Virus record (IMG/VR): IMGVR_UViG_3300011440_000014
Span: 1 to 44,331 of that record
Direction: 5' to 3' (one strand)
Length of the DNA stretch: 44,331 nt
From: a virus
The notes below the pieces were generated by a model. It was not told the DNA's origin, made no database searches, and saw only the letters and a list, made by a program, of their open reading frames with translations. Shown piece after piece: positions 6,238 through 42,966 of this stretch (within the stretch, counting starts at the first letter, position 1; every line of letters starts with the position of its first letter). A program made the position numbers and the translations under genes.

Positions 6238-6252
6238 GCCTCTATTATAGGC
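6238..6252 (-). promoter_or_regulatory. Promoter -10 element of the hypermodification operon
   Basis: Minus-strand TATAATAGAGGC with the hexamer at 6249-6244. Expected transcript start is about 20 bases before the ATG at 6217. No convincing -35 box; the upstream DNA encodes the end of the helicase gene. Confidence 0.65.
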
Positions 6253-12238: not shown

Positions 12239-12613
12239 TTAGACGTTGAATTTCAGGGAATGCTTGTGGACCTTCTCGATGCCGACGATGACCTCGCCCT
12301 CGTCCCATCGAGCCTTTACTGCCGAGGCGGTCAGCCTCTTCTGGAACAAGTCGGTCGCCTTGTTCGCAATTATGTAGTCGAGCACGGCGGGCCAGCCGCC
12401 GACAGCCACCATCGGCTCGATAGTAACGATGAGTCGCACCTCGTCATCGCCCTCGCGCCGCACGGTTTGTTTCAGGTGGTCCATCTCATTGATCAGCTGA
12501 CCAGTGAGGGTCTTTTCCTCTTGCTCTAGCAGGTCTGCCTCCCGCTGAAGGGACAGGCGGCGCTTACGCACCGAGAGGATGTTCGCCAGGGATATGTCGG
12601 ATAATGTAGTCAT
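12239..12613 (-). CDS. Conserved phage protein with N-terminal coiled coil (124 aa)
   Basis: Residues 10-50 form a charged heptad-like helix (VRKRRLSLQREADLLEQEEKTL at its core). The C-terminal part includes WPAVLDYIIANKATDLFQKRLTASAVKARWDEG and ends with GIEKVHKHSLKFNV. This layout (coiled coil plus a Y-I-x-x-N-x-A-x-x-L-x-Q-x-RL helix and G-x-E end) is shared by unnamed proteins in the replication region of many podophages. Function unknown; a DNA- or polymerase-associated accessory is possible. It has its own promoter (12662-12667) and a strong hairpin in the leader. Confidence 0.65.
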   Translation of the reverse strand: MTTLSDISLANILSVRKRRLSLQREADLLEQEEKTLTGQLINEMDHLKQTVRREGDDEVRLIVTIEPMVAVGGWPAVLDYIIANKATDLFQKRLTASAVKARWDEGEVIVGIEKVHKHSLKFNV

Positions 12614-12630
12614 GTAGGATATGCTTTCTA

Positions 12631-12660
12631 GAGGCCCCCGCCGGGGTGGCGGGGAACCTC
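12631..12660 (-). other. Strong stem-loop in the 5' leader of the 124-aa gene
   Basis: Nested stem: GAGG pairs with CCTC outside, and CCCCGCC pairs with GGCGGGG around a four-base ACCC loop. It starts about 2 bases after the -10 element, so it would sit at the very 5' end of the mRNA. No T tract follows on the minus strand, so it is unlikely to be a simple terminator. Confidence 0.7.
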
Positions 12661-12670
12661 TATTATACGC
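12660..12670 (-). promoter_or_regulatory. Promoter -10 element for the 124-aa gene
   Basis: Minus-strand GCG-TATAAT-AGAGG with the hexamer at 12667-12662, overlapping the end of the 198-aa gene. Same form as the other leftward promoters; no -35 seen. Confidence 0.65.
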
Positions 12671-12675
12671 CGGAA

Positions 12676-13272
12676 TCAGCGCTGCGACCGCTTCGATTTC
12701 TTGCCACTCATCGTCTCGGCAGCGGGCTCCTGCAGCGTTTCGGCGGGGTCGGAGTAGCTACCCCCTTCCGGCGCGGCTTCGACGCCTGCAGGGGCCGATG
12801 CAGGCCCTGCATCCGCTGTTTGCGCCTCGGGGTTAGCCGCCGCCTTCGCGGCCTTAGCTTTTGCGGCCGCGTCCGACTGCGCCTTACGGTCCAGCTTCAG
12901 AGGCTGGAACTTGTAGCCCTCTGGGTAGGTGAACTCGTACAGCGTGTCGGGCTGGTGATGGCCAGGGACGTAGAAGCTGGCGCCGTTGTACATGAAGTAC
13001 GTGTAACGGATTTCACCGAAGGTCGTTTGGGCAGCTTCGCACTGCTCGCCGTTGACCGTCAGGTGGTACCGCGCCGCCTTCAGGGGCATCGGGTACTTGA
13101 TTGCCTTGTGCGCGTCGGTCGCCCCGACAGGGCGGAAGAGCAGTTGGGCGGGGCCAGGCCGCTTCGGCTTGTCCGTATCGGTTGGCTTGTCCGTGGGCGG
13201 GTAGTCCTGCATCTCTGAGATGTTCAGAGTGGCGACGGCGGGGGGCAGGCTTGAGCCTTCAACATTTTCCAT
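12676..13272 (-). CDS. Hypothetical protein with disordered Ala/Pro-rich tail (198 aa)
   Basis: The start MENVEGSS at 13272 has CGGAGTT upstream and follows the promoter at 13321-13326. Residues 35-130 form a compact domain: LLFRPVGATDAHKAIKY, LKAARYHLTVNGEQCE, FGEIRYTYFMYNGASFYVPGHH. The last 65 residues are Ala/Pro/Glu-rich and end KKSKRSQR, a likely flexible basic tail. No family recognised. In this replication-side cluster it could bind DNA or act early in host takeover, but nothing decides that. Confidence 0.6.
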   Translation of the reverse strand: MENVEGSSLPPAVATLNISEMQDYPPTDKPTDTDKPKRPGPAQLLFRPVGATDAHKAIKYPMPLKAARYHLTVNGEQCEAAQTTFGEIRYTYFMYNGASFYVPGHHQPDTLYEFTYPEGYKFQPLKLDRKAQSDAAAKAKAAKAAANPEAQTADAGPASAPAGVEAAPEGGSYSDPAETLQEPAAETMSGKKSKRSQR

Positions 13273-13295
13273 GATAACTCCGGTTAGGTTGGGAA

Positions 13296-13313
13296 ACGCC
13301 CGGGTGAGGGCGT
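13296..13313 (-). other. Stem-loop in the 5' leader of the 198-aa gene
   Basis: ACGCCC pairs with GGGCGT around a six-base loop, starting about 10 bases downstream of the -10 element at 13321-13326. Same promoter-then-hairpin layout as at 12631 and 14532. Confidence 0.6.
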
Positions 13314-13318
13314 GGTTC

Positions 13319-13329
13319 CTATTATACGC
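13319..13329 (-). promoter_or_regulatory. Promoter -10 element for the 198-aa gene
   Basis: Minus-strand GCG-TATAAT-AGGAACC, hexamer 13326-13321, located between the stop of the 36-aa membrane protein and the start of the 198-aa gene. Confidence 0.65.
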
Positions 13330-13342
13330 CTGGTCAGGCAAA

Positions 13343-13453
13343 TTAGGTTTGGTCCACAGCGGATTTCGTCTGCGGAATCGTAACGAACAGTACGAGCCCG
13401 ATCATCACGAACAGGTACGTACAGGCGATGGCGGAGAGTAGCTCAAGCGTCAT
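13343..13453 (-). CDS. Membrane microprotein (36 aa)
   Basis: MTLELLSAIACTYLFVMIGL begins a protein with one hydrophobic helix of about 22 residues and a short polar tail ending AVDQT. Its ATG lies inside the end of the 42-aa gene (11-base overlap), with GAGAAG 1-6 bases upstream. Too short to rely on composition alone, but tandem coupling of two membrane peptides without gaps supports it. Possible roles, none shown: small holin/pinholin, superinfection exclusion or inhibitor of a membrane enzyme. Confidence 0.5.
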   Translation of the reverse strand: MTLELLSAIACTYLFVMIGLVLFVTIPQTKSAVDQT

Positions 13454-13571
13454 ACTTCTCGCAGAGGTAGTAGTAGATTGCGATGACTAGGCAGGATATG
13501 CCCCCATAGAGGGCTCCAGGCCCCCCACCTATTAGGTAACCCAGGAGGGTACCAAAGATGACGAGGCCCAT
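13443..13571 (-). CDS. Membrane microprotein (42 aa)
   Basis: Starts MGLVIFGTLLGYLIGGGPGA three bases after the stop of the 140-aa gene, then a second hydrophobic stretch (YGGISCLVIAIYYYLC) and ends EKYDA. Two short helices separated by a Gly/Pro turn make a hairpin membrane protein. Coupled to the 36-aa gene. A two-helix hairpin of this size is compatible with a holin or antiholin, but there is no endolysin next to it, so this is speculation. Confidence 0.5.
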   Translation of the reverse strand: MGLVIFGTLLGYLIGGGPGALYGGISCLVIAIYYYLCEKYDA

Positions 13572-13573
13572 GA

Positions 13574-13996
13574 TTAGATTGCCTTCTTGCCCGAGCGATT
13601 CGGGAAGGTCGTATTGATCCAACCCTCGAGCAATGCGATCCGTTCCTCCAGGGCAGTGACTCGCTGACCTTGGGCCAGAAGAGCCGCCGTCAGGCCCGCG
13701 TTATCTGACGTCGTTGGGACCCGCGCCCGGTTGTTCTCGATCTTGAACTGATCGCGACGCATCTTGATCGTATGATCCTTGATAACGCCCAGGGGGACGC
13801 CCAGCTTGCCGGCCGCGTAGTCAGCGAATTCCTTGTCGGTCTTGCCGCTAGGCGTGTACTCGGTCAGGAGCAAGTTGATCAGGCCGTGGTCTTGGACCAT
13901 CGTCAAGAATGTCTTCTTGCCGGTGTTCTCATGGCGCCGCCCTTTCGGGCTGTCGGTAATGGGGGTGTTCACGATGGCGAGTTCCGGTTGGTTCAT
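13574..13996 (-). CDS. Hypothetical protein with possible DNA-binding middle and C-terminal coiled coil (140 aa)
   Basis: N-terminal SPKGRRHENTGKKTFLTMVQDHG, a helical middle TDKEFADYAAGKLGVPLGVIKDHTIKMRRDQF (about 53-84) that looks like a helix-turn-helix segment, then a heptad helix LLAQGQRVTALEERIALLEG. An HTH plus a dimerising coiled coil would suit a transcription regulator. Together with its place in the operon starting at the divergent promoter pair (14564/14642), it is a candidate for the protein that binds the palindrome at 14592-14619. That link is a guess. Confidence 0.55.
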   Translation of the reverse strand: MNQPELAIVNTPITDSPKGRRHENTGKKTFLTMVQDHGLINLLLTEYTPSGKTDKEFADYAAGKLGVPLGVIKDHTIKMRRDQFKIENNRARVPTTSDNAGLTAALLAQGQRVTALEERIALLEGWINTTFPNRSGKKAI

Positions 13997-14011
13997 CTTT
14001 GTCTCCTGGGG

Positions 14012-14515
14012 TTATTCAGCTGCGGGAATGATTACGGCGGCGTCTTCGCAACGAAGCTCGTAGATGGGGCGAGCTTCCTTGTCCGGCTCGGTGTAACCGG
14101 TGACGACCCGCTTACAGGTTTCGCTATCCTGCTTAAAGTTCGCAGTGATCGTCACCGTCAGCCGACCGTAGAAGTCAGGGTCAGAGGACCAGAAGGTGAA
14201 GCGGTAGTTGCGAGCGTAGCTCTGCGCGTCGTCTTCAGTCGTGGACTCGGCGGGCTCGTGATGGAGCATCGAGTTCAGGAGGGCAGCGAGGCCCTCGTCT
14301 TTCAGGCCCGACAGCTCTTTAAGAGTCAGGTAGACAGAGTTGTAGGTCCCGTCGAAGTAATGGGACATCCCGGCCTTATGCTTCTCGGCCAGGTAGTCGA
14401 GGGAGTCCAGGATTTTCCTCATCGGGGGCGAAGACATCCAACGCTTGCCTTCGCGCAGTTTGCGGGCCTTATAGTCCGCAGTTTCAATCATCTCTTGTAC
14501 TAGCTTCTTACGCAT
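14012..14515 (-). CDS. Hypothetical protein (167 aa)
   Basis: First gene of the leftward operon from the divergent promoter region, ATG at 14515 with CAAGGAAAG upstream. N-terminal charged helix (KKLVQEMIETADYKARKLREGKRW region), then helices around LDYLAEKHKAGMSHYFDGTYNSV, and a beta-rich C-terminal part (YRFTFWSSDPDFYGRLTVTITANF). No known family. Early transcription and position opposite the primase-helicase suggest a replication or takeover role, unproven. Confidence 0.6.
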   Translation of the reverse strand: MRKKLVQEMIETADYKARKLREGKRWMSSPPMRKILDSLDYLAEKHKAGMSHYFDGTYNSVYLTLKELSGLKDEGLAALLNSMLHHEPAESTTEDDAQSYARNYRFTFWSSDPDFYGRLTVTITANFKQDSETCKRVVTGYTEPDKEARPIYELRCEDAAVIIPAAE

Positions 14516-14531
14516 GGGTTCTACTTTCCTT

Positions 14532-14560
14532 GCTACTCTAGGGGCCGCCTAGTCGGTAGC
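14532..14560 (-). other. Nested stem-loop in the 5' leader of the 167-aa gene
   Basis: GCTAC (14532-14536) pairs with GTAGC (14556-14560), and inside it CTAGG (14538-14542) pairs with CCTAG (14548-14552). It begins 4 bases downstream of the -10 element at 14564-14569, so the mRNA would start with this structure. Confidence 0.65.
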
Positions 14561-14561
14561 T

Positions 14562-14572
14562 CTATTATAGGC
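14562..14572 (-). promoter_or_regulatory. Leftward promoter of the divergent pair
   Basis: Minus-strand GCC-TATAAT-AGAGC, hexamer 14569-14564. No -35 hexamer; the palindrome at 14592-14619 occupies about -36 to -63, where an activator or repressor could act. Confidence 0.7.
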
Positions 14573-14591
14573 GGGCCACTTACTGTTTAAG

Positions 14592-14619
14592 TGCCTATCT
14601 TCTGTACAGAAACGAGGCA
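14592..14619. promoter_or_regulatory. Operator-like palindrome between divergent promoters
   Basis: A perfect 12-bp palindrome, TTCTGTACAGAA (14600-14611), is flanked at 3 bases on each side by the inverted pair TGCCT and AGGCA. Twenty-two of 28 positions are symmetric. The centre, 14605.5, is exactly midway between the centres of the two TATAAT boxes (14566.5 and 14644.5). The layout suggests one dimeric regulator controlling both the leftward early operon and the primase-helicase gene. Confidence 0.65.
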
Positions 14620-14639
14620 AACCCTGTCCCCCTAGAGCG

Positions 14640-14650
14640 CCTATAATAGG
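14640..14650 (+). promoter_or_regulatory. Rightward promoter of the divergent pair (primase-helicase)
   Basis: GCC-TATAAT-AGGAGG, hexamer 14642-14647, about 35 bases upstream of ATG 14683. No -35 hexamer is visible. Confidence 0.7.
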
Positions 14651-14682
14651 AGGTTCCCCCCTTCGATAGACAGGAATAGGCC

Positions 14683-16848
14683 ATGCCTAGCTTTCCAACC
14701 AATATAAACCCATTGTCTACATTATTGGAGCGGCGCCATCTTACAGCCGCAGAGGGGGCCTTAATGGGGTTGGTTATTACCAACGTCAAGGACTCATCCG
14801 GGGACCTGGGGTATGTACCAGGAGGGCAGATAAAACATCTAGAAAAGCTGCCGTACCATGATCTGGATGGGGCACCGATCATAGACCCCAAGCTGAATAT
14901 CCCATTCGTTCGATACCGCATCGAACGCCCTGAGGGATACATTCCCCCAGTTAGCAGAGACCTAGGCTCAGACGGCAAGCCCGTCAAGCCAGCCAAGTAT
15001 CTCTCCCCCAAGGCCTCAAGTCTGTTCGTGTACGTTCCCCGAGTCGATGGGTTCAATTGGACTAACATCGCGGCGAACGTCACTGTTCCAGTGATTATAA
15101 CAGAGGGGGAATTCAAGTCATACTCCGTATGTAAGACAGGAAATCCCTGCCTCGGCCTCATGGGCGTCCAGTGCTTCGGTAAAACCCCAGACCCCTTCCC
15201 TGCCCCGTTTGACCAATTTGAGCATCTCAAGCGTGAGTATTACATCGTTTTCGATGCCGATAAAGAGGCTGACTACGAGAATACGCTCAAGAAAGAGGTT
15301 GCCCAAGCTGCGCTTCGGCTCGGGACCAAGCTGACTCTGGCCGGTGGGGAGGTCTTCCTGCTCCATATAGCGCGCACTGAGACGTTCCGTAAGGGCAGGG
15401 AGAAGGACCCAGACGCCAAGATGGGCATCGATGACTTCCTCGATGCCGGCGGCACGATGGAAGAGATCATGTCCACCGCTACGGCCGCAGTGTCGTGCCA
15501 GGACATGGCCGAGCTTCGGGCCAAGTATGCGTACTATACAGGGCAGAGTCCCCATATAATCAACGTTCTCAATGGGAATATTTACAAGGTTAGCGTCTTC
15601 GTCAATGAGTTGGAGGCTCCCCGAATTAGGCTGGTTCCTACCAAGTCTGGCTTCAAGAAAGTCAGCGTAGCGGAGGAATTCAAGGAAGCAAGGGATCGGC
15701 CCGAGGTTGATCGTAAGGTGTTCTGGCCTAATGAGCCCTCCGGTTATGACGCAGAGGGGCGAACGTACAACGAATGGACTGGTTTTAGTGCCGTGCCCTG
15801 GTCTGGAAACAGGGAAGAATACAATGAGATGGTTGCCGTATGGCAGAAGTTCATCGGAGGATTGTTCCCCAATTATGGGGACTACTTCCAGAAGTGGCTT
15901 GCTCATATGGTTCAATGTCCAGGGGAGAAGACTAACATTGCGGTAATCCTCGCCTCTGTACACAATGGGGTCGGTAAGTCCCTGCTAGGGGAGATCATCC
16001 GGGGCATCGTAGGCCCAACGCACTCTATTGCGTTGGAGCTTGATCGCTCGATGGCCAAGTTCAATGCCCAGTTAGGTAAGAAGCTGTTCCTCCAAATGGA
16101 TGAAGCAGATGGGCGATTCTCAGGACACGAGAGTAAACTCAAGGATTTAGTTTCAGCCGACACGATGGTCATCGAACCCAAGGGCTTCGATGCGTATACA
16201 GTGGACAATTTCCTCCGTATTTTCTTGACGAGCAATTCGTCAGCGCCGATCCGGCTAGATGCGGAGAACAGGCGATTCTTCGTATGCGGCCCCACGATGA
16301 CGTCGGTGTACGCGAAGACAGAGTGGCAACCTTGGGTAGATAGCATAGCCAAGCGCATGAAGTCTAGTCGTTGGCTACAAATGCTACACTGGTACCTGTC
16401 TAAGGTTGACCTTACAGGCTGGGATCCAACTGCTCGAGTTATTGTAACCCCGCAGATGGAAGAGATGGTAGAGGCATCGAGGTCGAAGGCAACCACCGTT
16501 ATGGATGGTCTATGGGAGGTATTCCAGGGGGACGAAGACGGTGTTTGGCTCATTACCAGCGAAACTCGGGGCAAGGACAATAAGCTCTTTGCTGATCTCA
16601 TCGAGAAGGTTCGCATTGAGGGCGGCTCCACTCTGCTCTATGACGGCTTCTACAAGGGCGTTCGGTTCAAGGGGACGATCCTGGACCGGGAGGGGAAGCT
16701 GCCCCGAAAGCAGAACACCCAACAGAAGTGGGTGTTAGAGGCCGGGTCTGGCTTCAGTAGCGAGGCGGCATGGAAGGCGGGGGTCAAGGCGACAGTAGCT
16801 TACACCGCCTGGAAGGACAACGCCCTTCCAGGATCAGCGAAGTACTAG
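14683..16848 (+). CDS. Primase-helicase: Toprim-like (DUF3854) plus D5-type SF3 helicase
   Basis: 721 aa. The N-terminal part has a Toprim-like site: VIITEGEFKS (about 136-145), then YYIVFDADKEADYEN (about 186-200) and GIDDFLDAGG (near 247), as in DUF3854 primase-helicases. The C-terminal half is an SF3/D5 AAA+ helicase: Walker A HNGVGKS (about 427-433), Walker B KLFLQMDEADG (about 467-477), and IFLTSNSSAPIRLDAENRRFFV with sensor Asn and arginine finger. Such proteins open the origin and prime synthesis on phage DNA. It lies 0.7 kb from the origin-like region. Ribosome-binding site CAGGAA upstream of 14683. Its stop overlaps the convergent gene's stop at CTAG. Confidence 0.9.
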   Translation: MPSFPTNINPLSTLLERRHLTAAEGALMGLVITNVKDSSGDLGYVPGGQIKHLEKLPYHDLDGAPIIDPKLNIPFVRYRIERPEGYIPPVSRDLGSDGKPVKPAKYLSPKASSLFVYVPRVDGFNWTNIAANVTVPVIITEGEFKSYSVCKTGNPCLGLMGVQCFGKTPDPFPAPFDQFEHLKREYYIVFDADKEADYENTLKKEVAQAALRLGTKLTLAGGEVFLLHIARTETFRKGREKDPDAKMGIDDFLDAGGTMEEIMSTATAAVSCQDMAELRAKYAYYTGQSPHIINVLNGNIYKVSVFVNELEAPRIRLVPTKSGFKKVSVAEEFKEARDRPEVDRKVFWPNEPSGYDAEGRTYNEWTGFSAVPWSGNREEYNEMVAVWQKFIGGLFPNYGDYFQKWLAHMVQCPGEKTNIAVILASVHNGVGKSLLGEIIRGIVGPTHSIALELDRSMAKFNAQLGKKLFLQMDEADGRFSGHESKLKDLVSADTMVIEPKGFDAYTVDNFLRIFLTSNSSAPIRLDAENRRFFVCGPTMTSVYAKTEWQPWVDSIAKRMKSSRWLQMLHWYLSKVDLTGWDPTARVIVTPQMEEMVEASRSKATTVMDGLWEVFQGDEDGVWLITSETRGKDNKLFADLIEKVRIEGGSTLLYDGFYKGVRFKGTILDREGKLPRKQNTQQKWVLEAGSGFSSEAAWKAGVKATVAYTAWKDNALPGSAKY

Positions 16849-17159
16849 AAGCTGCGATCGTTCAGCCCGGCCCAATCGACCAGGAAGTCGATTGCGGACT
16901 GCTTATCGCGGGCGACGATGATATTGTTCATGTCGATGAACCCGGCGTAAACCTCGGCAACGCCGGCAGGCTCGTTCTTGCGATAGATGCGAAGCTCGCA
17001 GGGCTTCCGATCCTTGGAGTAAACGTATCGCTCCCAGCCGCGTCCGACCGGCAGGCCCTCGTCGTCGCTGAAGAGGATTTCGCCCCAGGTCGCAGGGTCC
17101 TTAGCGCCGGTGTCGTCTGTAATCTCGTCGGGGTAGCTGTTAGGGTCAAGGTCGGTCAT
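16845..17159 (-). CDS. Hypothetical protein (104 aa)
   Basis: Starts MTDLDPNSYPDEITDD at 17159, after the promoter-leader at 17160-17206; an earlier in-frame ATG would run through the promoter. Acidic N-terminus, middle WGEILFSDDEGLPVGRGWERYVYSKDRKPCELRIYRKNEPAG, C-terminus ARDKQSAIDFLVDWAGL. Looks like a small alpha-beta domain. Unknown family. It is convergent with the primase gene, and the two stop codons share the four bases CTAG. Confidence 0.65.
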   Translation of the reverse strand: MTDLDPNSYPDEITDDTGAKDPATWGEILFSDDEGLPVGRGWERYVYSKDRKPCELRIYRKNEPAGVAEVYAGFIDMNNIIVARDKQSAIDFLVDWAGLNDRSF

Positions 17160-17207
17160 GGAAGGGGTCTTTCTCTGTAAGGGGTTAGGGGAGCCCCTAG
17201 TATAGCG
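17160..17207 (-). promoter_or_regulatory. Promoter and leader, copy 1
   Basis: Minus-strand CGC-TATACT-AGGGG (hexamer 17204-17199), then CCCCTAACCCCTTACAG, AGAAAGA and the ATG at 17159. Nearly the same unit occurs before the 71-aa gene (17458-17506), so the promoter-leader was duplicated. Confidence 0.65.
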
Positions 17208-17241
17208 CGTCAGTCGCTGCCTAGGGGCTAGGGCAGGCGAT

Positions 17242-17457
17242 TTATAGCTTGACGCTAGGGGAGAAGGGGGCCGAATCGGGGAGGGCAGACCAGCCAATTA
17301 CCGGGTCTTCTATCATGATCTCGTTCGTTGACTCCATCCAGCCAACGCCCTCTATCCAGGTAGCAACGATAGGGAACGCTGTCTTGTGCTCCTTGGACCA
17401 ATACCAGGCCAGGACGGGGGTAGAGTTCAGCGGGTAGGTCGGGGAATATTGGGCCAT
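17242..17457 (-). CDS. Hypothetical protein (71 aa)
   Basis: Start MAQYSPTYPLNSTPVLAW at 17457, with AGAAAGATAG in the leader and the promoter at 17498-17503. Trp-rich beta-type protein (WYWSKEHKTAF, WIEGVGWME, IGWSALPD), soluble. No family recognised. With its neighbour it forms a leftward pair, each with its own copy of the same leader, so they are probably co-regulated although not in one operon. Confidence 0.6.
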   Translation of the reverse strand: MAQYSPTYPLNSTPVLAWYWSKEHKTAFPIVATWIEGVGWMESTNEIMIEDPVIGWSALPDSAPFSPSVKL

Positions 17458-17507
17458 GAGGGGTCTATCTTTCTGTAAAGGGGTTAGGGGAACCTCTATT
17501 ATAGCGG
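17458..17507 (-). promoter_or_regulatory. Promoter and leader, copy 2
   Basis: Minus-strand CGC-TATAAT-AGAGG (hexamer 17503-17498), then CCCCTAACCCCTTTACAG, AAAGATAGA and the ATG at 17457. Closely matches copy 1 at 17160-17207 over some 45 bases, with a few substitutions and small indels. Confidence 0.7.
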
Positions 17508-17563
17508 GTCACTCTCTGGTAAGCGTTGACTAAGTAATGGTTTGTGTCCCTACGGGGAAGTCT

Positions 17564-17585
17564 GGTAGGATAGGGGGTAGGATAG
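17564..17585. repeat. Iteron-like direct repeats
   Basis: Two copies of GGTAGGATAG separated by two G. The 7-mer TAGGATA recurs inverted at 17621-17627 and 17629-17635, and AGGATAG again at 17718-17724, giving five related sites in about 160 bp. Confidence 0.75.
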
Positions 17586-17623
17586 TGTAAGTCTTTGATT
17601 TATAAGGGGATTTTGGCTGTTAT

Positions 17624-17728
17624 CCTACTATCCTACTGTCCCTACTATAAAAGTTATATATACGACTCGTGGGCATTACTCTCTCCTAAAAGCGATTTTT
17701 GGCACCGTAGGGACAGAAGGATAGTAGG
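17624..17728. repeat. 22-bp inverted repeat flanking AT-rich DNA
   Basis: 17624-17645 (CCTACTATCC, TACTGTCCCTAC) is the reverse complement of 17707-17728 (GTAGGGACAG, AAGGATAGTAGG) with one mismatch. The 61 bp between start TATAAAAGTTATATATACGA-like and are AT-rich. It could extrude as a cruciform or bind an initiator. Confidence 0.8.
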
Positions 17729-17948
17729 GGAGAAACTGCGTCTCTCAGCACACCACAGGAATTGTTTGGCATCTTTGGCACGCCTGGCAAATTCAGGTAA
17801 AACGCACTACAGCAACGCTGTGTGTGCTGCCCCCTCTGGCGCCTGTAGACGGTGTCTGCTACAGCCGCAGCACAGGCCCATAGCGCAGCGCTATCGCAGC
17901 AGCGCAGCCATAGGCACAGGCTATCAGCATGCGTGCTGTGCGGGCTTG

Positions 17949-17957
17949 TGTGGATAA
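17949..17957 (-). promoter_or_regulatory. Consensus DnaA box
   Basis: Minus strand reads TTATCCACA, an exact match to the bacterial DnaA R-box. It is followed within 20 bp by AT-rich CCCCTATTATATCCTG. It suggests host DnaA participates in initiation. Confidence 0.65.
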
Positions 17958-17973
17958 AATCCGGCATATCCCC

Positions 17974-17984
17974 CTATTATATCC
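17974..17984 (-). promoter_or_regulatory. Orphan leftward promoter-like element in the origin region
   Basis: Minus-strand TATAAT (17981-17976) followed by AGGGGG, the same element as the gene promoters, but with no credible gene directly after it. It would transcribe across the DnaA box and the repeats; a priming or regulatory RNA is possible. Confidence 0.4.
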
Positions 17985-18190
17985 TGTTTTTCCTGCCCCG
18001 TCTAATTGTATTTTCCTATCGCAGCGTTGCTGCTCATAGCTGCGGGCTATGCTGCGCTGCCTCGCGCCCACCGCCTCCCCCGCCCTCCCACCCCTATTCT
18101 ACCCTATTTTCGGGTGTAAGTCTAATAGATTTCAGCTATAGGACCGATAGAAAATTTCTATGCTCGAGACGGTTTTTCCACTCGAATCCC

Positions 18191-18201
18191 CCTATAATAG
18201 A
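18191..18201 (+). promoter_or_regulatory. Promoter -10 element of the island gene
   Basis: CCC-TATAAT-AGAGCC, hexamer 18193-18198, about 90 bases upstream of ATG 18287. No -35 box. A 13-base dyad, TAGAAAATTTCTA (18148-18160), is centred about 41 bp upstream of the -10, a spacing similar to that of the palindrome at 14605. Confidence 0.65.
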
Positions 18202-18202
18202 G

Positions 18203-18235
18203 CCTAGGACGAAACGATAAGCGAATCGTCCTAGG
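18203..18235 (+). other. Leader stem-loop of the island gene
   Basis: CCTAGGACGA and TCGTCCTAGG form a perfect 10-bp stem around a 13-base loop, beginning about five bases after the -10 hexamer. It would be the 5' end of the transcript. Confidence 0.75.
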
Positions 18236-18286
18236 GGATTTTCCCCGAGCCCGCCTAGGGGGTTTACCCTAGTAAAGAGAGTAAAA

Positions 18287-18769
18287 ATGCGTAAAGTTTT
18301 CGTTAACGGTAATCTTTCCCTCGTCCGCGTTCTTTCCCCGTTCGCCTATAAAGACCCGATTAAAACCCTCGATAAATCGAACGAGGCCCGCGTTACCCTC
18401 GACGGCGTTAGGGTCTTTCGCTCGGCCGTTACCTCGGGCCGCGACGTTAAAAACGCGAACGGCGGACTAAAGTTTCATCTTTACTTCTATAGTTCTAAAG
18501 ACGCCGCCGAGGCCCGCGATACGTCGCGCCGCGAGTTCTTTCCTATTACCGCCGAGGAGTTTCGGGCCTATAAAGACGATCCGGCTTATACTATCGAACT
18601 AGTTACCGCGACCGGGCTCGAAAAAGCGGAAACGGAAGTACTACCCGACGGCGTAAACGAGGCCGTTCGTTCCGAGGAAGCGATTTTCGTTACCGTTTCG
18701 GAAACGGAAGTACTACCCGCCGACGAGCCCGCGAACGAAGGTACTACCCGTAAGTCGCGTCGGAAATAA
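18287..18769 (+). CDS. Orphan protein encoded without CA or TG dinucleotides (160 aa)
   Basis: No family recognised. Residues 1-105 look like a folded alpha-beta domain (KVFVNGNLSLVRVLSPF, LKFHLYFYSSKDAAEARD, RREFFPITAEEFRAYKDDPAY). The rest is acidic, with two EVLP repeats (ETEVLPDG and ETEVLPAD) encoded by an exact 21-base repeat 72 bases apart, and ends TTRKSRRK. The protein has no Gln, Cys, Trp or internal Met and one His, just the residues whose codons need CA or TG. Codons ending CA or TG (GCA, CTG, GTG, TTG, ACA, CCA, TCA) are never used, and Lys is AAA rather than the AAG favoured elsewhere. AAGAGAG precedes the ATG. It stands alone between the origin-like region and tandem terminators. 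Confidence 0.8.
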   Translation: MRKVFVNGNLSLVRVLSPFAYKDPIKTLDKSNEARVTLDGVRVFRSAVTSGRDVKNANGGLKFHLYFYSSKDAAEARDTSRREFFPITAEEFRAYKDDPAYTIELVTATGLEKAETEVLPDGVNEAVRSEEAIFVTVSETEVLPADEPANEGTTRKSRRK

Positions 18770-18775
18770 AAGTAC

Positions 18776-18797
18776 TACTACTCCCTAGGGAGTAGTA
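18776..18797. repeat. 22-bp perfect palindrome after the island gene
   Basis: TACTACTCCCT followed by its exact reverse complement AGGGAGTAGTA. It lies between the stop codon (18769) and the terminator; it could be a second RNA hairpin or a protein-binding site. Confidence 0.85.
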
Positions 18798-18803
18798 CCT
18801 AAG

Positions 18804-18837
18804 TACCCGATAGGTAATCCCTATCGGGTATTTTTTT
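18804..18837 (+). terminator. Rho-independent terminator 1
   Basis: Perfect 11-bp stem TACCCGATAGG / CCTATCGGGTA with a five-base loop, directly followed by seven T. It ends the island gene transcript. Confidence 0.9.
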
Positions 18838-18845
18838 CGTTAGGT

Positions 18846-18872
18846 GATAGCGAAAAGCTATCGGCCTTTTTT
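18846..18872 (+). terminator. Rho-independent terminator 2
   Basis: GATAGC, loop GAAAA, GCTATC, then GGCC and six T. In tandem with terminator 1, it insulates the terminase and structural genes from upstream transcription. Confidence 0.75.
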
Positions 18873-18895
18873 CTTCATAGGAAAAATTAATCGGC

Positions 18896-18925
18896 GGGGG
18901 GGGCCTAGGGGGGATATGGGGGGTG
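18896..18925 (+). other. G-run cluster upstream of the terminase genes
   Basis: Eight G (18896-18903), six G (18908-18913), six G (18918-18923), then TGG, with 1-4 base spacers. Four G-tracts can be drawn by splitting the first run, so a G-quadruplex is possible. The location just before terminase small subunit also makes it a candidate packaging site. Confidence 0.5.
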
Positions 18926-19004
18926 GACGAGCATATTACTGCGGACAGCATTTCGTGTCACATGATTCCCAGCACCCTGCACAGAAAAATTCCATGCAAC
19001 TGCG

Positions 19005-19038
19005 ACTTTACGCCCAGCGGAATCCGGCCTATAATAGC
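19005..19038 (+). promoter_or_regulatory. Late-type promoter of the terminase/structural block
   Basis: TTTACG (19007-19012), 17-bp spacer, TATAAT (19030-19035) followed by AG. Unlike most promoters here it has a recognisable -35. The expected start falls at about 19042, the A of the ATG. Confidence 0.7.
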
Positions 19039-19041
19039 CCC

Positions 19042-19470
19042 ATGGATGAGCCGAAACGCGACCCCGCACTCTCACATCTCTTGGACCAGATTGAGAATGG
19101 CCCCCCTATGTTACTTCAGGGACTGAATTTGGAAATGTCCCCTGAGCTCACCCGCTTACTGGAGCGCGGGCTCATTGGGGACAGCCTACCGCCTGTCCTC
19201 AAAGACTCAAAGGCAGCTAAAGCCTTCCAGCAGGCCTTTGATATGATCGGTGGAGTGCCCCGCCTGGCCCTCTGGGCCGATCAGAACCCAACAAAGTTCT
19301 ACACCCTCTATAGCAAACTGGTCCCCGCCACTGCGGAAGTCAACACAAAGACCGATATTCGCGTCACAATCAGTTGGGCCTCCCCCGAGCGCCTGTCTTA
19401 CGCCAATGGTCCAGTGGAGGACGTGGTCCCCAATCCTGAATCTGACTCGCCCCAGGCCCCAAATGCTTGA
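19042..19470 (+). CDS. Probable terminase small subunit
   Basis: 142 aa from ATG 19042 (MDEPKRDPALSHLLDQ). The end of the middle region, AFQQAFDMIGGVPRLALWADQNPTKFYTLYSKLVP (about 55-90), is the pattern of podophage proteins encoded right before TerL: GG-x-x-x-L-x-x-WA-x-x-NP-x-x-FY-x-L-x-x-K-x-P. These are generally taken as small terminase subunits, which bind the packaging site and regulate TerL. The tail is Pro/Asp-rich. The start lies only about 7 bases after the -10 box with no Shine-Dalgarno sequence, so the mRNA may be leaderless; an upstream in-frame ATG (18994) has no better site. Overlaps TerL by 8 bases. Confidence 0.65.
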   Translation: MDEPKRDPALSHLLDQIENGPPMLLQGLNLEMSPELTRLLERGLIGDSLPPVLKDSKAAKAFQQAFDMIGGVPRLALWADQNPTKFYTLYSKLVPATAEVNTKTDIRVTISWASPERLSYANGPVEDVVPNPESDSPQAPNA

Positions 19471-20827
19471 GTATGTCCCCCGCCAGCAGTTTCTTGGCTT
19501 CCATAACAGGCGCCATCGCTGGGCGGTGCTGAATACCCATCGGCGAGCAGGGAAGACTGTCGCGCTGACCAATGATTTGATCGTTGGGGCCCTCCAGAAC
19601 CAACTGCGGAAGCCTCAGCTGGCCTATATTGGCCCCACATTCACCCAGGCGAAGCGTATTGCGTGGCAATACCTCAAGGATTATGCCGAACCGTACCTGT
19701 CCAAACCCCCCTCAGAGTCAGAGCTCAAGATCACTCTCCACGGTGAGCGGACGTTATATTGTCTCGGTGCCGACAATCCTGATTCACTCCGCGGAATGTA
19801 CCTTGATGGCGCGGTCATGGACGAGTACGCACTTTTTAGACCCTCTGTTTTCTCCACTATTATCCGGCCAGCCCTATCAGACAGGAACGGGTGGGGAGTC
19901 TTCGCCTCTACACCAAGAGGCAAGAACCTGTTTTATAGCGAGTACAAGAAAGCAATCAAAAACCCCAAGGAGTACTTCCAGCTCACCCTCAAAGCCTCAA
20001 TCAGCGGCCTGATCCACCCCCTTGAGCTGGAGGCCCTCCGCAAGGACATGGACCCGGAGGAATATGCGCAGGAGTATGAGTGTTCGTTCGATGCTGCTCT
20101 GAAAGGAGCCATCTATGCTGAAGAAATCAACGCAGTCTTCGCTGAGTTCAGGGTCAAACCCGGATTATATGATCCCAATCTCCCAACTCATGTGGTATTT
20201 GACCTGGGCTTCACAGATGCGACCGTCGCCATATATTGGCAAGAGGGCCCAGACGGCACAATCCGAATCGTCAACGTCGAAGTCACCAACGGAAAAGACA
20301 TCTTCCACCACATCGACCGCATTATACAGTTCAAAGGTCAAGCTGACCTAGGCAGCGTGTGGTTACCACACGATGCCAAAGCCAAGAACCTCCAAACGGG
20401 CAAGTCCATAATTGAGCAGTTCCTTGACAACGACATTCGGCCCCAGATCGTCCCCAATCACAAGGTTCGGGATCGGATCGCCGCCACACGGAACATTTTC
20501 CCCCGTGTACACTTTGACGAGGAAATCAGTGAGGACCTCCTGGAGGCCCTCAAGGGCTACCGGCGTGAATGGGACGACAATCTGCTCATGTTCAAGGACA
20601 TCCCGATGCACGACTGGTGCTCGGACTATGCGGATGCCTTCGGGTACATGGGTGTTGTTGCCGCCCCCAAATTCGGCAACTTGGGGACTGCTGATATGTC
20701 CCCCGACGCCATCAAGACACAGCAAGCCCGTGCTAAGAAGCACAACGCCCCTGGTGAGTACACCATGGCCAATCTCTTTCAGGACTATGAGGACCGTCAG
20801 AAGGGTCTTCGCAGGAGAATTCAATAA
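19463..20827 (+). CDS. Terminase large subunit
   Basis: 454 aa. ATPase: Walker A THRRAGKT (25-32), Walker B YLDGAVMDEYA (D120-E121), motif III FASTPRGKN. RNase H-like nuclease: first Asp in VVFDLGFTDATVA (D247), second in WLPHDAKAKN, third in HDWCSDYADAFGYM. It drives DNA into the prohead and cuts it. Start MLEYVPRQQF at 19463 is inside the small-subunit gene; the in-frame ORF extends further upstream but only as a shadow. The stop TAA shares its last A with the portal ATG. Confidence 0.95.
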   Translation: MLEYVPRQQFLGFHNRRHRWAVLNTHRRAGKTVALTNDLIVGALQNQLRKPQLAYIGPTFTQAKRIAWQYLKDYAEPYLSKPPSESELKITLHGERTLYCLGADNPDSLRGMYLDGAVMDEYALFRPSVFSTIIRPALSDRNGWGVFASTPRGKNLFYSEYKKAIKNPKEYFQLTLKASISGLIHPLELEALRKDMDPEEYAQEYECSFDAALKGAIYAEEINAVFAEFRVKPGLYDPNLPTHVVFDLGFTDATVAIYWQEGPDGTIRIVNVEVTNGKDIFHHIDRIIQFKGQADLGSVWLPHDAKAKNLQTGKSIIEQFLDNDIRPQIVPNHKVRDRIAATRNIFPRVHFDEEISEDLLEALKGYRREWDDNLLMFKDIPMHDWCSDYADAFGYMGVVAAPKFGNLGTADMSPDAIKTQQARAKKHNAPGEYTMANLFQDYEDRQKGLRRRIQ

Positions 20828-23396: not shown

Positions 23397-24467
23397 ATGG
23401 GCGACGAAACTGAAGTTGTAGACCGCAGAACGGCTATTGAAGCCGCGTTTGTACACCAAGAGGCGGCGGAAGCTGCCGAAACCCCGGAGGCCGCTGCACC
23501 GGCTCCGCCAGCCGCCCCGGTAGAGGCCCCCGCGCCCGAGGCGAAAGGCGCTGAGCAGCAACCGGAGGCCCCTGCGCAGAAGCCCGCAAAGGAAGCTACC
23601 GCCGCGCCGCTACCCGAACAGCCTTCCTTTCCTGTGGACAAGGCTCCCCAGTCGTGGCGTGCGCCTGCCCGGGCCAAATGGGATAAGATGGACCCGGAAG
23701 TACGGCAGGAGGTGATGAAGCGGGAACGCGAGACCACCAAGGTGCTCGGGGAGACTGCCCAGGTTCGGCAGTTCGCCAATCAGTTCCAGCAGATCGTTGC
23801 CCCTTACCAGGCTAGGATTGCGTCCATGGGCATTGACACCCTAGGCGCTGTCCACGAGCTTCTAAAGGGTGACTACTTGCTGGCTACTGCGCCGAAGACC
23901 CAGAAGGCTCAGCTGATGGCGAAGCTGATCAACGACTATGGCGTGGATATCATGGAGCTAGACGCCGCGCTGGCCGGAAAAGGCCCTGCTGACCCCGTGG
24001 ACTCGCAGGTAGAGAAGCTGCTCCAGGAACGGCTGGCCCCCTTCCAGCAGTACATCGCGAATCAGCAACGCACCGCTCAGGAGTACGAGCAGAGGTCCCA
24101 GGCTGAGGTCAATCAGACCATCGAACAGATGGAGGGTGATCCCAAATACCCCCATTTCGCCACTGTTCGGCTCGATATGGCCGATGCTATCGACCTGGCA
24201 GCGAAAAGAGGGCTTTACTTAACTCTTGATCAGGCCTATAATAGGGCTATTGCGATGAACCCAGAGGTAAGCGGCCAGGTAGCCGCCCAACAGCAAGCAG
24301 ATGCCCGGAAGACCGCAGCCCAGCAAGCCAATGCTAAGGCTCAGCGCGCTCTCGGGGCCTCAGTTTCTGTCGGTGGCGCGCCTAGTGGAGTACCGAGTGG
24401 GGCCTCAGGAGCAACTGATCGTCGTTCAGTAATCGAAGCAGCGTTCGAGCAGATCGGAGGAAGATAG
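23397..24467 (+). CDS. Capsid scaffolding protein
   Basis: 356 aa located between portal and major capsid. Acidic Ala/Pro/Glu-rich N-terminal region (10-75), then helical and coiled segments (QESWRAPARAKWDKM-like motif near 83-95; QVEKLLQERLAPFQQYI; RTAQEYEQRSQAEVNQTIEQ) and a Gln/Ala-rich helix before the end. A short motif occurs at both termini: DRRTAIEAAF at 8-17 and DRRSVIEAAF near 343-352. Composition, helicity and location are those of a scaffold; the C-terminal helix likely binds capsid. Contains an internal late-type promoter at 24214-24244. Confidence 0.8.
   Translation: MGDETEVVDRRTAIEAAFVHQEAAEAAETPEAAAPAPPAAPVEAPAPEAKGAEQQPEAPAQKPAKEATAAPLPEQPSFPVDKAPQSWRAPARAKWDKMDPEVRQEVMKRERETTKVLGETAQVRQFANQFQQIVAPYQARIASMGIDTLGAVHELLKGDYLLATAPKTQKAQLMAKLINDYGVDIMELDAALAGKGPADPVDSQVEKLLQERLAPFQQYIANQQRTAQEYEQRSQAEVNQTIEQMEGDPKYPHFATVRLDMADAIDLAAKRGLYLTLDQAYNRAIAMNPEVSGQVAAQQQADARKTAAQQANAKAQRALGASVSVGGAPSGVPSGASGATDRRSVIEAAFEQIGGR
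24212..24245 (+). promoter_or_regulatory. Internal late-type promoter for capsid genes
   Basis: TTTACT (24214-24219), 17-bp spacer, TATAAT (24237-24242) followed by AGGG, inside the scaffold coding region and 375 bp before the capsid start. Same architecture as the promoter at 19007-19035. Confidence 0.6.
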
Positions 24468-42425: not shown

Positions 42426-42733
42426 CACTTATGCGTCGGCTTAGGCCGATGCTTGGGCTTCGCCTTCGGCTTCAGTGGAACTGAGGCAGGGGGCGGGTTT
42501 TGGCACACCGGCATCATGATCGGTGGGGCCTGAACCGGGGCCGCTTGCGCCACCGGTGTAGGAGCAGGAACATGGGGCTTGATGTGCGCATGAAGCTCCG
42601 CGTTACACTTGCTGAAGGAACCTGCGGACTTATGCCCGCCGTTCCACGAGTAGCACGTAGGCTCATCCTGGAAGCCACCGCCCGCGTAGGAGCAGGTAGC
42701 AACCAGGAGGCCCGCAAGGGCCAGGTATTTCAT
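42422..42733 (-). CDS. Exported Pro-rich protein (103 aa)
   Basis: Start MKYLALAGLLVATCSYAGG at 42733, ATGA-coupled to the sponge-like gene. The N-terminal 18-20 residues look like a signal peptide ending near AYAG. Mature part: two Cys (TCYSWNGG, KCNAELHAHIKPH), then a Pro/Val/Ala-rich region and basic KPKAKPKHRPKPTHKC end. It probably resides in the periplasm or cell envelope. Confidence 0.6.
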   Translation of the reverse strand: MKYLALAGLLVATCSYAGGGFQDEPTCYSWNGGHKSAGSFSKCNAELHAHIKPHVPAPTPVAQAAPVQAPPIMMPVCQNPPPASVPLKPKAKPKHRPKPTHKC

Positions 42734-42966
42734 TTGGTGTTCCAGGTTACGGCCTTGACCGCCCACATCTGAGCGGTCTGAGCCTCGGTGATTGCGATCG
42801 AGAGCATGCGCTTCTCTTCCTGGTCGGTGCTTTCGGTACGCAGGTCATTGAGGTTGTCGATGACGTCCGCAAACTGACCCTTGATAGCGTTGACCGTGGG
42901 GTTGCTCCCAGGATTGAAGGTAAGGCCCACGGCCCTACCCCCAAACGTCAGATCATCTTTGGTCAT
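42730..42966 (-). CDS. Candidate Acb2/Tad1-type cyclic-nucleotide sponge (78 aa)
   Basis: Layout: beta start (TFGGRAVGLTFNPGSNPTV), helix NAIKGQFADVIDNLNDLR, and a terminal helix KRMLSIAITEAQTAQMWAVKAVTW (53-76). The A-x-T-x-x-x-x-A-x-MWA-x-x-A pattern ending the hairpin is that of the Acb2 (T4 Vs.4)/Tad1 helical-hairpin family, small proteins that oligomerise and bind cyclic nucleotides, defeating CBASS (and Thoeris) immunity. Assignment rests on remembered motif and length (family about 75-100 aa). ATGA overlaps at both ends. It is located among exported-protein genes rather than in an early anti-defence cluster. Confidence 0.5.
   Translation of the reverse strand: MTKDDLTFGGRAVGLTFNPGSNPTVNAIKGQFADVIDNLNDLRTESTDQEEKRMLSIAITEAQTAQMWAVKAVTWNTK

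Follow-up and report, generated by a model that had tools for sequence, protein, structure and literature searches.

The A3 promoter of phage phi29 has a poor -35 and relies on p4, a dimer that binds an inverted repeat immediately upstream (PMC3100819). In the early/late region of phi29, the promoters of the two sides, A2b/A2c and A3, share p4 binding; there are four p4 sites, of the form CTTTTT-N15-AAAATG, which act together with p6, and one side is switched off while the other is switched on (PMC3100819). Bacterial bidirectional promoters, as described by the Grainger laboratory, contain pseudo-symmetrical elements, and a single promoter region there serves transcription in either direction (PMC12825309). 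The operators of divergent operons in general also resemble the locus presented here, in that one palindromic site lies between two outward promoters. A further point of reference is given by the T4-type late promoters, which are linked to gp55, read TATAAATA and have no -35.

The DNA that we analyzed (the window) comprises all 44,331 nt of the virus record IMGVR_UViG_3300011440_000014. It was compared with three close relatives: G001 (also L003, IMGVR_UViG_3300011423_000013), G002 (also L002), and L006 (IMGVR_UViG_3300048895_000366), a diverged contig found by searching for the pattern of paired boxes. Between the genes at 14012-14515(-) and 14683-16848(+), an inverted 11-mer, GCCTATAATAG, holds each of two outward TATAAT boxes. 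The features of the region are as follows.

14562-14569, minus strand: -10-type box TATAATAG of the putative leftward promoter (p167 / replication operon), with TATAAT running from 14569 to 14564
14642-14649, plus strand: -10-type box TATAATAG of the putative rightward promoter (primase-helicase), with TATAAT running from 14642 to 14647
14592-14619, no strand: putative operator, a 28-bp dyad TGCCT-atc-TTCTGTACAGAA-acg-AGGCA with 11/14 pairs
14600-14611, no strand: perfect 12-bp palindromic core TTCTGTACAGAA, 12/12 in G001 and 11/12 in L006
14650-14672, plus strand: putative initial transcribed region of the rightward promoter, GAGGTTCCCCCCTTCGATAGACA, 23/23 identical in L006
14533-14562, minus strand: putative leftward 5' leader with stem-loop CTAGG-CGGCC-CCTAG (-12 kcal/mol, z -1.9)
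14012-14515, minus strand: p167, first gene of the leftward operon, 167 aa, alpha/beta fold model
13574-13996, minus strand: p140, second leftward gene, 140 aa, with an HTH-like domain and a coiled coil (AF2 model), candidate regulator
14683-16848, plus strand: primase-helicase (phrog_1156 DNA primase; Pfam DUF3854 and DUF5906)

An earlier note on this DNA had described outward-facing boxes of identical type with a perfect 12-bp core and outer inverted 5-mers centered on their midpoint, and this geometry is indeed present. The arms are TGCCT (14592-14596) and AGGCA (14615-14619), and the dyad is centered at 14605.5, exactly midway between the two TATAAT boxes, which are 73 bp apart and leave an interval of 72 bp between them (14570-14641). 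When this interval was shuffled with dinucleotides kept, a perfect 12-mer palindrome arose at the midpoint with a frequency of 2.3e-4 and anywhere in the interval with 0.011, while the values for a dyad with at least 11/14 pairs were 6.7e-5 and 0.0024, respectively. Palindromes of 12 bp are not rare by themselves in the window (6 observed vs. 11.9 expected); therefore, the position of the dyad and its outer arms carry the weight. The core occurs once in the window, and no second place in the window resembles the full 28-mer.

With -12 assigned to the first T of TATAAT (standard promoter numbering), the dyad would cover about -35 to -62 of both start sites, abutting both -35 positions, with its center at about -48.5, and its span would correspond to the space that two polymerases standing back to back leave free. 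The best -35 candidates 16-18 bp upstream are CTTAAA (3/6) on the leftward side and CAAACC (2/6) on the rightward side and there is no TG, i.e., neither box has the -35 hexamer or the TGn extended -10 of a standard sigma-70 promoter.

The locus resembles that of phi29 in being a phage divergent region with poor -35 promoters and a dimer-type inverted repeat upstream, which here would putatively serve both sides. However, the window has a single 28-bp dyad with short spacing, placed exactly midway between two promoters that lack a -35, and by inspection the p4 site CTTTTT-N15-AAAATG is absent from 14570-14641. We consider A3/p4 of phi29 the nearest known mode of action, by analogy and not by membership. 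Bidirectional promoters are similar in that divergent transcription would arise from symmetrical DNA and one regulator may act both ways, whereas the window has two separate boxes with the dyad between them, and the 72 bp separating the boxes leaves no shared or overlapping promoter elements. Compared to generic divergent-operon operators, the window differs in its exact centering and in the lack of a -35 on both sides.

No Rfam families were found across 12500-19500, and 13500-15500 had no match to similar DNA in annotated phages. Between 14 and 16 kb the AT skew changes sign, from negative to positive, which fits the switch of coding direction there. Several other candidate elements were rejected. 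An inverted repeat close to position 14586, CACTTA/TAAGTG, is not intact in L006, and a LexA-type site would have half-sites, CTGT/ACAG, that abut, at odds with the usual LexA spacing. The 28-bp dyad had one match in bacterial genomes, a terminator-like hairpin in a Bacteroidia MAG, which agrees with the chance-level expectation.

G001 and G002 are 99% identical to the window at this region and so are little informative; the operator is 28/28 identical in G001. In L006, protein identity to the window is 74% for p167 and 68% for the primase, and 55% and 50% of the respective third codon positions are identical. Even so, L006 differs from the window at just one of the 28 dyad positions, T14601 in the core being A, which breaks one pair, and the boxes are unchanged (16/16). 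The two spacers between boxes and dyad retain 19/22 and 16/22 bases (35/44 together), i.e., the dyad is conserved above its surroundings and above the third positions. The box distance of 73 bp is identical in the window, G001, G002 and L006. Since the dyad, the boxes and their spacing are kept in L006 despite third positions at 50-55%, the whole region is under selection, which is strongest on the boxes, the dyad and the rightward start. Conservation of the spacing in related phages had been suggested as a check and loss of the palindrome in close relatives as counter-evidence; among the three close relatives, the former is observed and the latter is not. In IMG/VR, the dyad pattern is found only in these three close relatives.

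More distant phages were gathered by DNA polymerase searches (46-75% identity). Most relatives carrying both genes have p167 on the left divergent to the primase on the right, at polymerase identities down to 62%. This does not include L052 and L053, in which boxes 72 bp apart, with no dyad, precede p198 rather than p167. The distant relatives have TATACT or TATAGT boxes with other sequences between them and do not carry the window palindrome, which at up to 2 mismatches is absent from L039-L058 save for four isolated 12-mers away from divergent regions. As the divergent order occurs in distant relatives without the dyad, the putative operator is lineage-specific and the divergent architecture older. 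The p167 leader stem-loop is more widely kept than the dyad and has compensatory changes in 3/5 pairs across relatives. The p167-primase intergenic regions of L039, L042, L043, L057 and L058 were also surveyed, and several have a GC-rich inverted repeat (CGCG...CGCG) directly upstream of the rightward TATACT-type box. Several distant relatives have CATACGAAAC or a variant in common between p167 and primase, clearly unlike the window operator. L050 (reverse complement, 14756-14789) has a mirror pair, CCTAGTATA-N16-TATACTAGG, whose outward -10 boxes lie just 17 bp from each other, with no window-like central dyad.

The two boxes belong to a larger class, as 12 of the 16 TATAAT in the window read TATAATAG, where 0.51 would be expected. 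The sites are located at the following positions.

Minus strand: 167-174, 2384-2391, 6242-6249, 12660-12667, 13319-13326, 14562-14569, 17496-17503, 17974-17981
Plus strand: 14642-14649, 18193-18200, 19030-19037, 24237-24244

The class is common to the window, G001, G002 and L006, and G001 (44,506 bp) likewise carries 12 sites, 4 forward and 8 reverse. In both the window and G001 the sites mostly precede genes; the 24237 site, present in G001 too, is inside a coding region. The -35 match at the 12 sites averages 2.42/6 vs. 2.34/6 for background. A -35-like hexamer (4/6), either CTTTAC or TAGACG with a 17-bp spacer, accompanies 3/12 sites and is missing at 9/12; CTTTAC with this spacer is found at the late-region sites 19030 and 24237, and the hexamer at 19030 is kept in all four genomes. 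TGn is absent before the box at nearly all sites, and a G is common three bases before it. Because most sites lack a -35, its absence at 14569 and 14642 follows the general pattern of this phage. The earlier statement that neither promoter has a -35 was therefore correct, but the absence is not special to this pair.

The T4 late promoters offer a parallel for this class, being likewise phage-wide 8-bp -10 elements without a -35. They differ in that the window has TATAATAG instead of TATAAATA, that the window class includes replication genes and that some members have a -35-like hexamer. Scanning part of the genes against Pfam and PHROGs gave no match to a gp55-like sigma, and relatives of gp55 can diverge beyond the reach of such scans. 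Literature searches on TATAATAG turned up only unrelated papers. A shared operator at other promoters of the class was considered and rejected: weak dyads lie 38-41 nt upstream of 13319-, 18193+ and 19030+, with differing sequences and within expectation for a search of about 120 positions.

Stem-loops directly follow the boxes at 12630-12660(-), 13290-13319(-), 14533-14562(-) and 18200-18240(+), with z-scores from -1.9 to -5.6, and would lie at the 5' ends of the transcripts. At 19030-19044(+) and 17965-17981(-), an ATG is found within 4-5 bases after TATAATAG; both arrangements are kept in G001 and that of the 19030 site also in L006, and the transcripts from 19030(+) and 17981(-) may be leaderless. 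A one-mismatch member of the class, TATACTAG at 17204(-), has leader sequence in common with 17503(-).

The p140 protein had been proposed as a possible regulator. Its AF2 model (pLDDT 71) has three helices at residues 33-83 and a long helix at 96-130, an appearance that fits DNA binding, and p140 may well bind DNA according to this model. Family searches gave no match, and the fold search gave a best Z of 6.7, with the GcrA DNA-binding domain at 6.5 and the FapR HTH at 6.2, which are background-level values. The gene is found in all four palindrome-bearing genomes. The window has KDHTIKMRRDQF at the putative reading helix and G001 has KGHNVKNRRDAM, with identical operators in both, and L050, L052 and L053 have a p140 with nearly the same helix, KDHTIK(M/A)RRDQ, and no such palindrome. 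No p140 was detected in L039-L049, L054, L057 and L058. As helix and operator do not change together, p140 is not established as the regulator of the dyad and is retained as a candidate only. The regulator could alternatively be a host protein. The other nearby gene product, p167, was discarded as a regulator, with an alpha/beta model, no HTH and no fold match above background. In G001, the N-terminal HTH-like domain of p140 (L003 8930-9328(-)) is far more diverged than its coiled coil or the neighbor genes, as if exchanged by recombination. Elsewhere in the window, 42730-42966(-) encodes a protein with an Acb2/Tad1 hairpin domain (Pfam PF24729, E 1e-12), likely an anti-CBASS sponge.

The divergent region is a genuine cis-regulatory region that is conserved, belongs to a general type already known and is unusual in its symmetry. 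Our preferred explanation, with a probability of about 0.4, is that a dimeric protein at the lineage-specific dyad recruits RNA polymerase to both promoters of the replication genes. Polymerase would start both ways from two -10-only promoters of the TATAATAG class, giving a leftward transcript with p167, p140, a putative ssDNA-binding protein, DNA polymerase, nucleases and a helicase, and a rightward transcript with the primase-helicase. A DNA-binding dimer, or a pair of dimers, would occupy the 28-bp dyad and touch the polymerase on either side, thereby substituting for the missing -35 and coupling both operons. The dyad lies upstream of both promoters, which makes action at the RNA level unlikely. 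A dyad center at -48.5 is not a canonical class I or class II activator position. Distant relatives managing without the dyad also speak against an activator, and as the dyad is absent from the other TATAATAG promoters it is not a general answer to the missing -35. The previous suggestion of a single dimeric regulator for both operons is upheld as far as a divergent promoter with a conserved operator-like element is concerned (27/28 bases, 73 bp), while the argument from the missing -35 is weakened. A more specific proposal is that host polymerase alone cannot use the -10-only class and that one phage protein at the center positions two polymerases back to back and sets off both replication operons together, a single dimer taking the place of both -35 contacts; we regard this as rather improbable.

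The dyad might instead be a repressor operator, e.g., for an early phage autorepressor, that covers the upstream halves of both promoters while the polymerase needs no help. Repressors commonly have a central operator between divergent promoters, the conservation of the dyad fits this equally well, and both -10 boxes are perfect TATAAT, so they could function unaided, which counts against the need for an activator. On the other hand, the dyad stops at about -35 and leaves the -10 boxes and start sites free, and promoters without a -35 or TGn should have low basal activity by the usual sigma-70 rules, leaving little to repress. We find a repressor doubtful, albeit conceivable. Alternatively, a polymerase whose specificity subunit is supplied or altered by the phage might read the TATAATAG class, as for T4 late promoters, with the dyad as a separate element or an accessory one. 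A fixed stretch of eight bases, lacking a -35 and TGn at nearly all sites, would suit such a polymerase, as would a class common to G001, G002 and L006 where related phages use TATACT boxes. However, Pfam/PHROGs scans of part of the genes recognized no sigma-like or RNA polymerase gene, the -35-like hexamers at three sites, one of them kept in all four genomes, do not fit, and TATAAT is the ordinary sigma-70 -10. We consider an altered polymerase unlikely.

That the palindrome belongs to a replication origin or an initiator site is very unlikely, even though it is intergenic and adjoins the primase-helicase gene. The cumulative GC skew has no turn at 14.6 kb and peaks at 17-18 kb, the dyad is single with no iterons, and its exact centering between two boxes would be left unexplained. 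The better origin candidate is 17504-18286, 0.8 kb of mostly noncoding, inverted-repeat-rich DNA at the cumulative GC-skew peak, which also has a second divergent box pair (17981-, 18193+). Mere chance symmetry, conserved only because the genomes are close, is hardly credible. The 99% identity of G001 and G002 and the frequency of 12-bp palindromes in the window would agree with chance, but L006 is distant enough to be informative and keeps nearly the whole dyad and the exact spacing, and the midpoint probability is about 7e-5.

Collectively, the locus illustrates, in compact and testable form, how phage replication genes may be controlled together in an uncultured lineage without recognized regulators, and its short symmetrical site defines the exact bait DNA for the putative binding protein. 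The TATAATAG class is the more interesting part, as it poses the question of how the polymerase finds promoters without a -35 or an extended -10.
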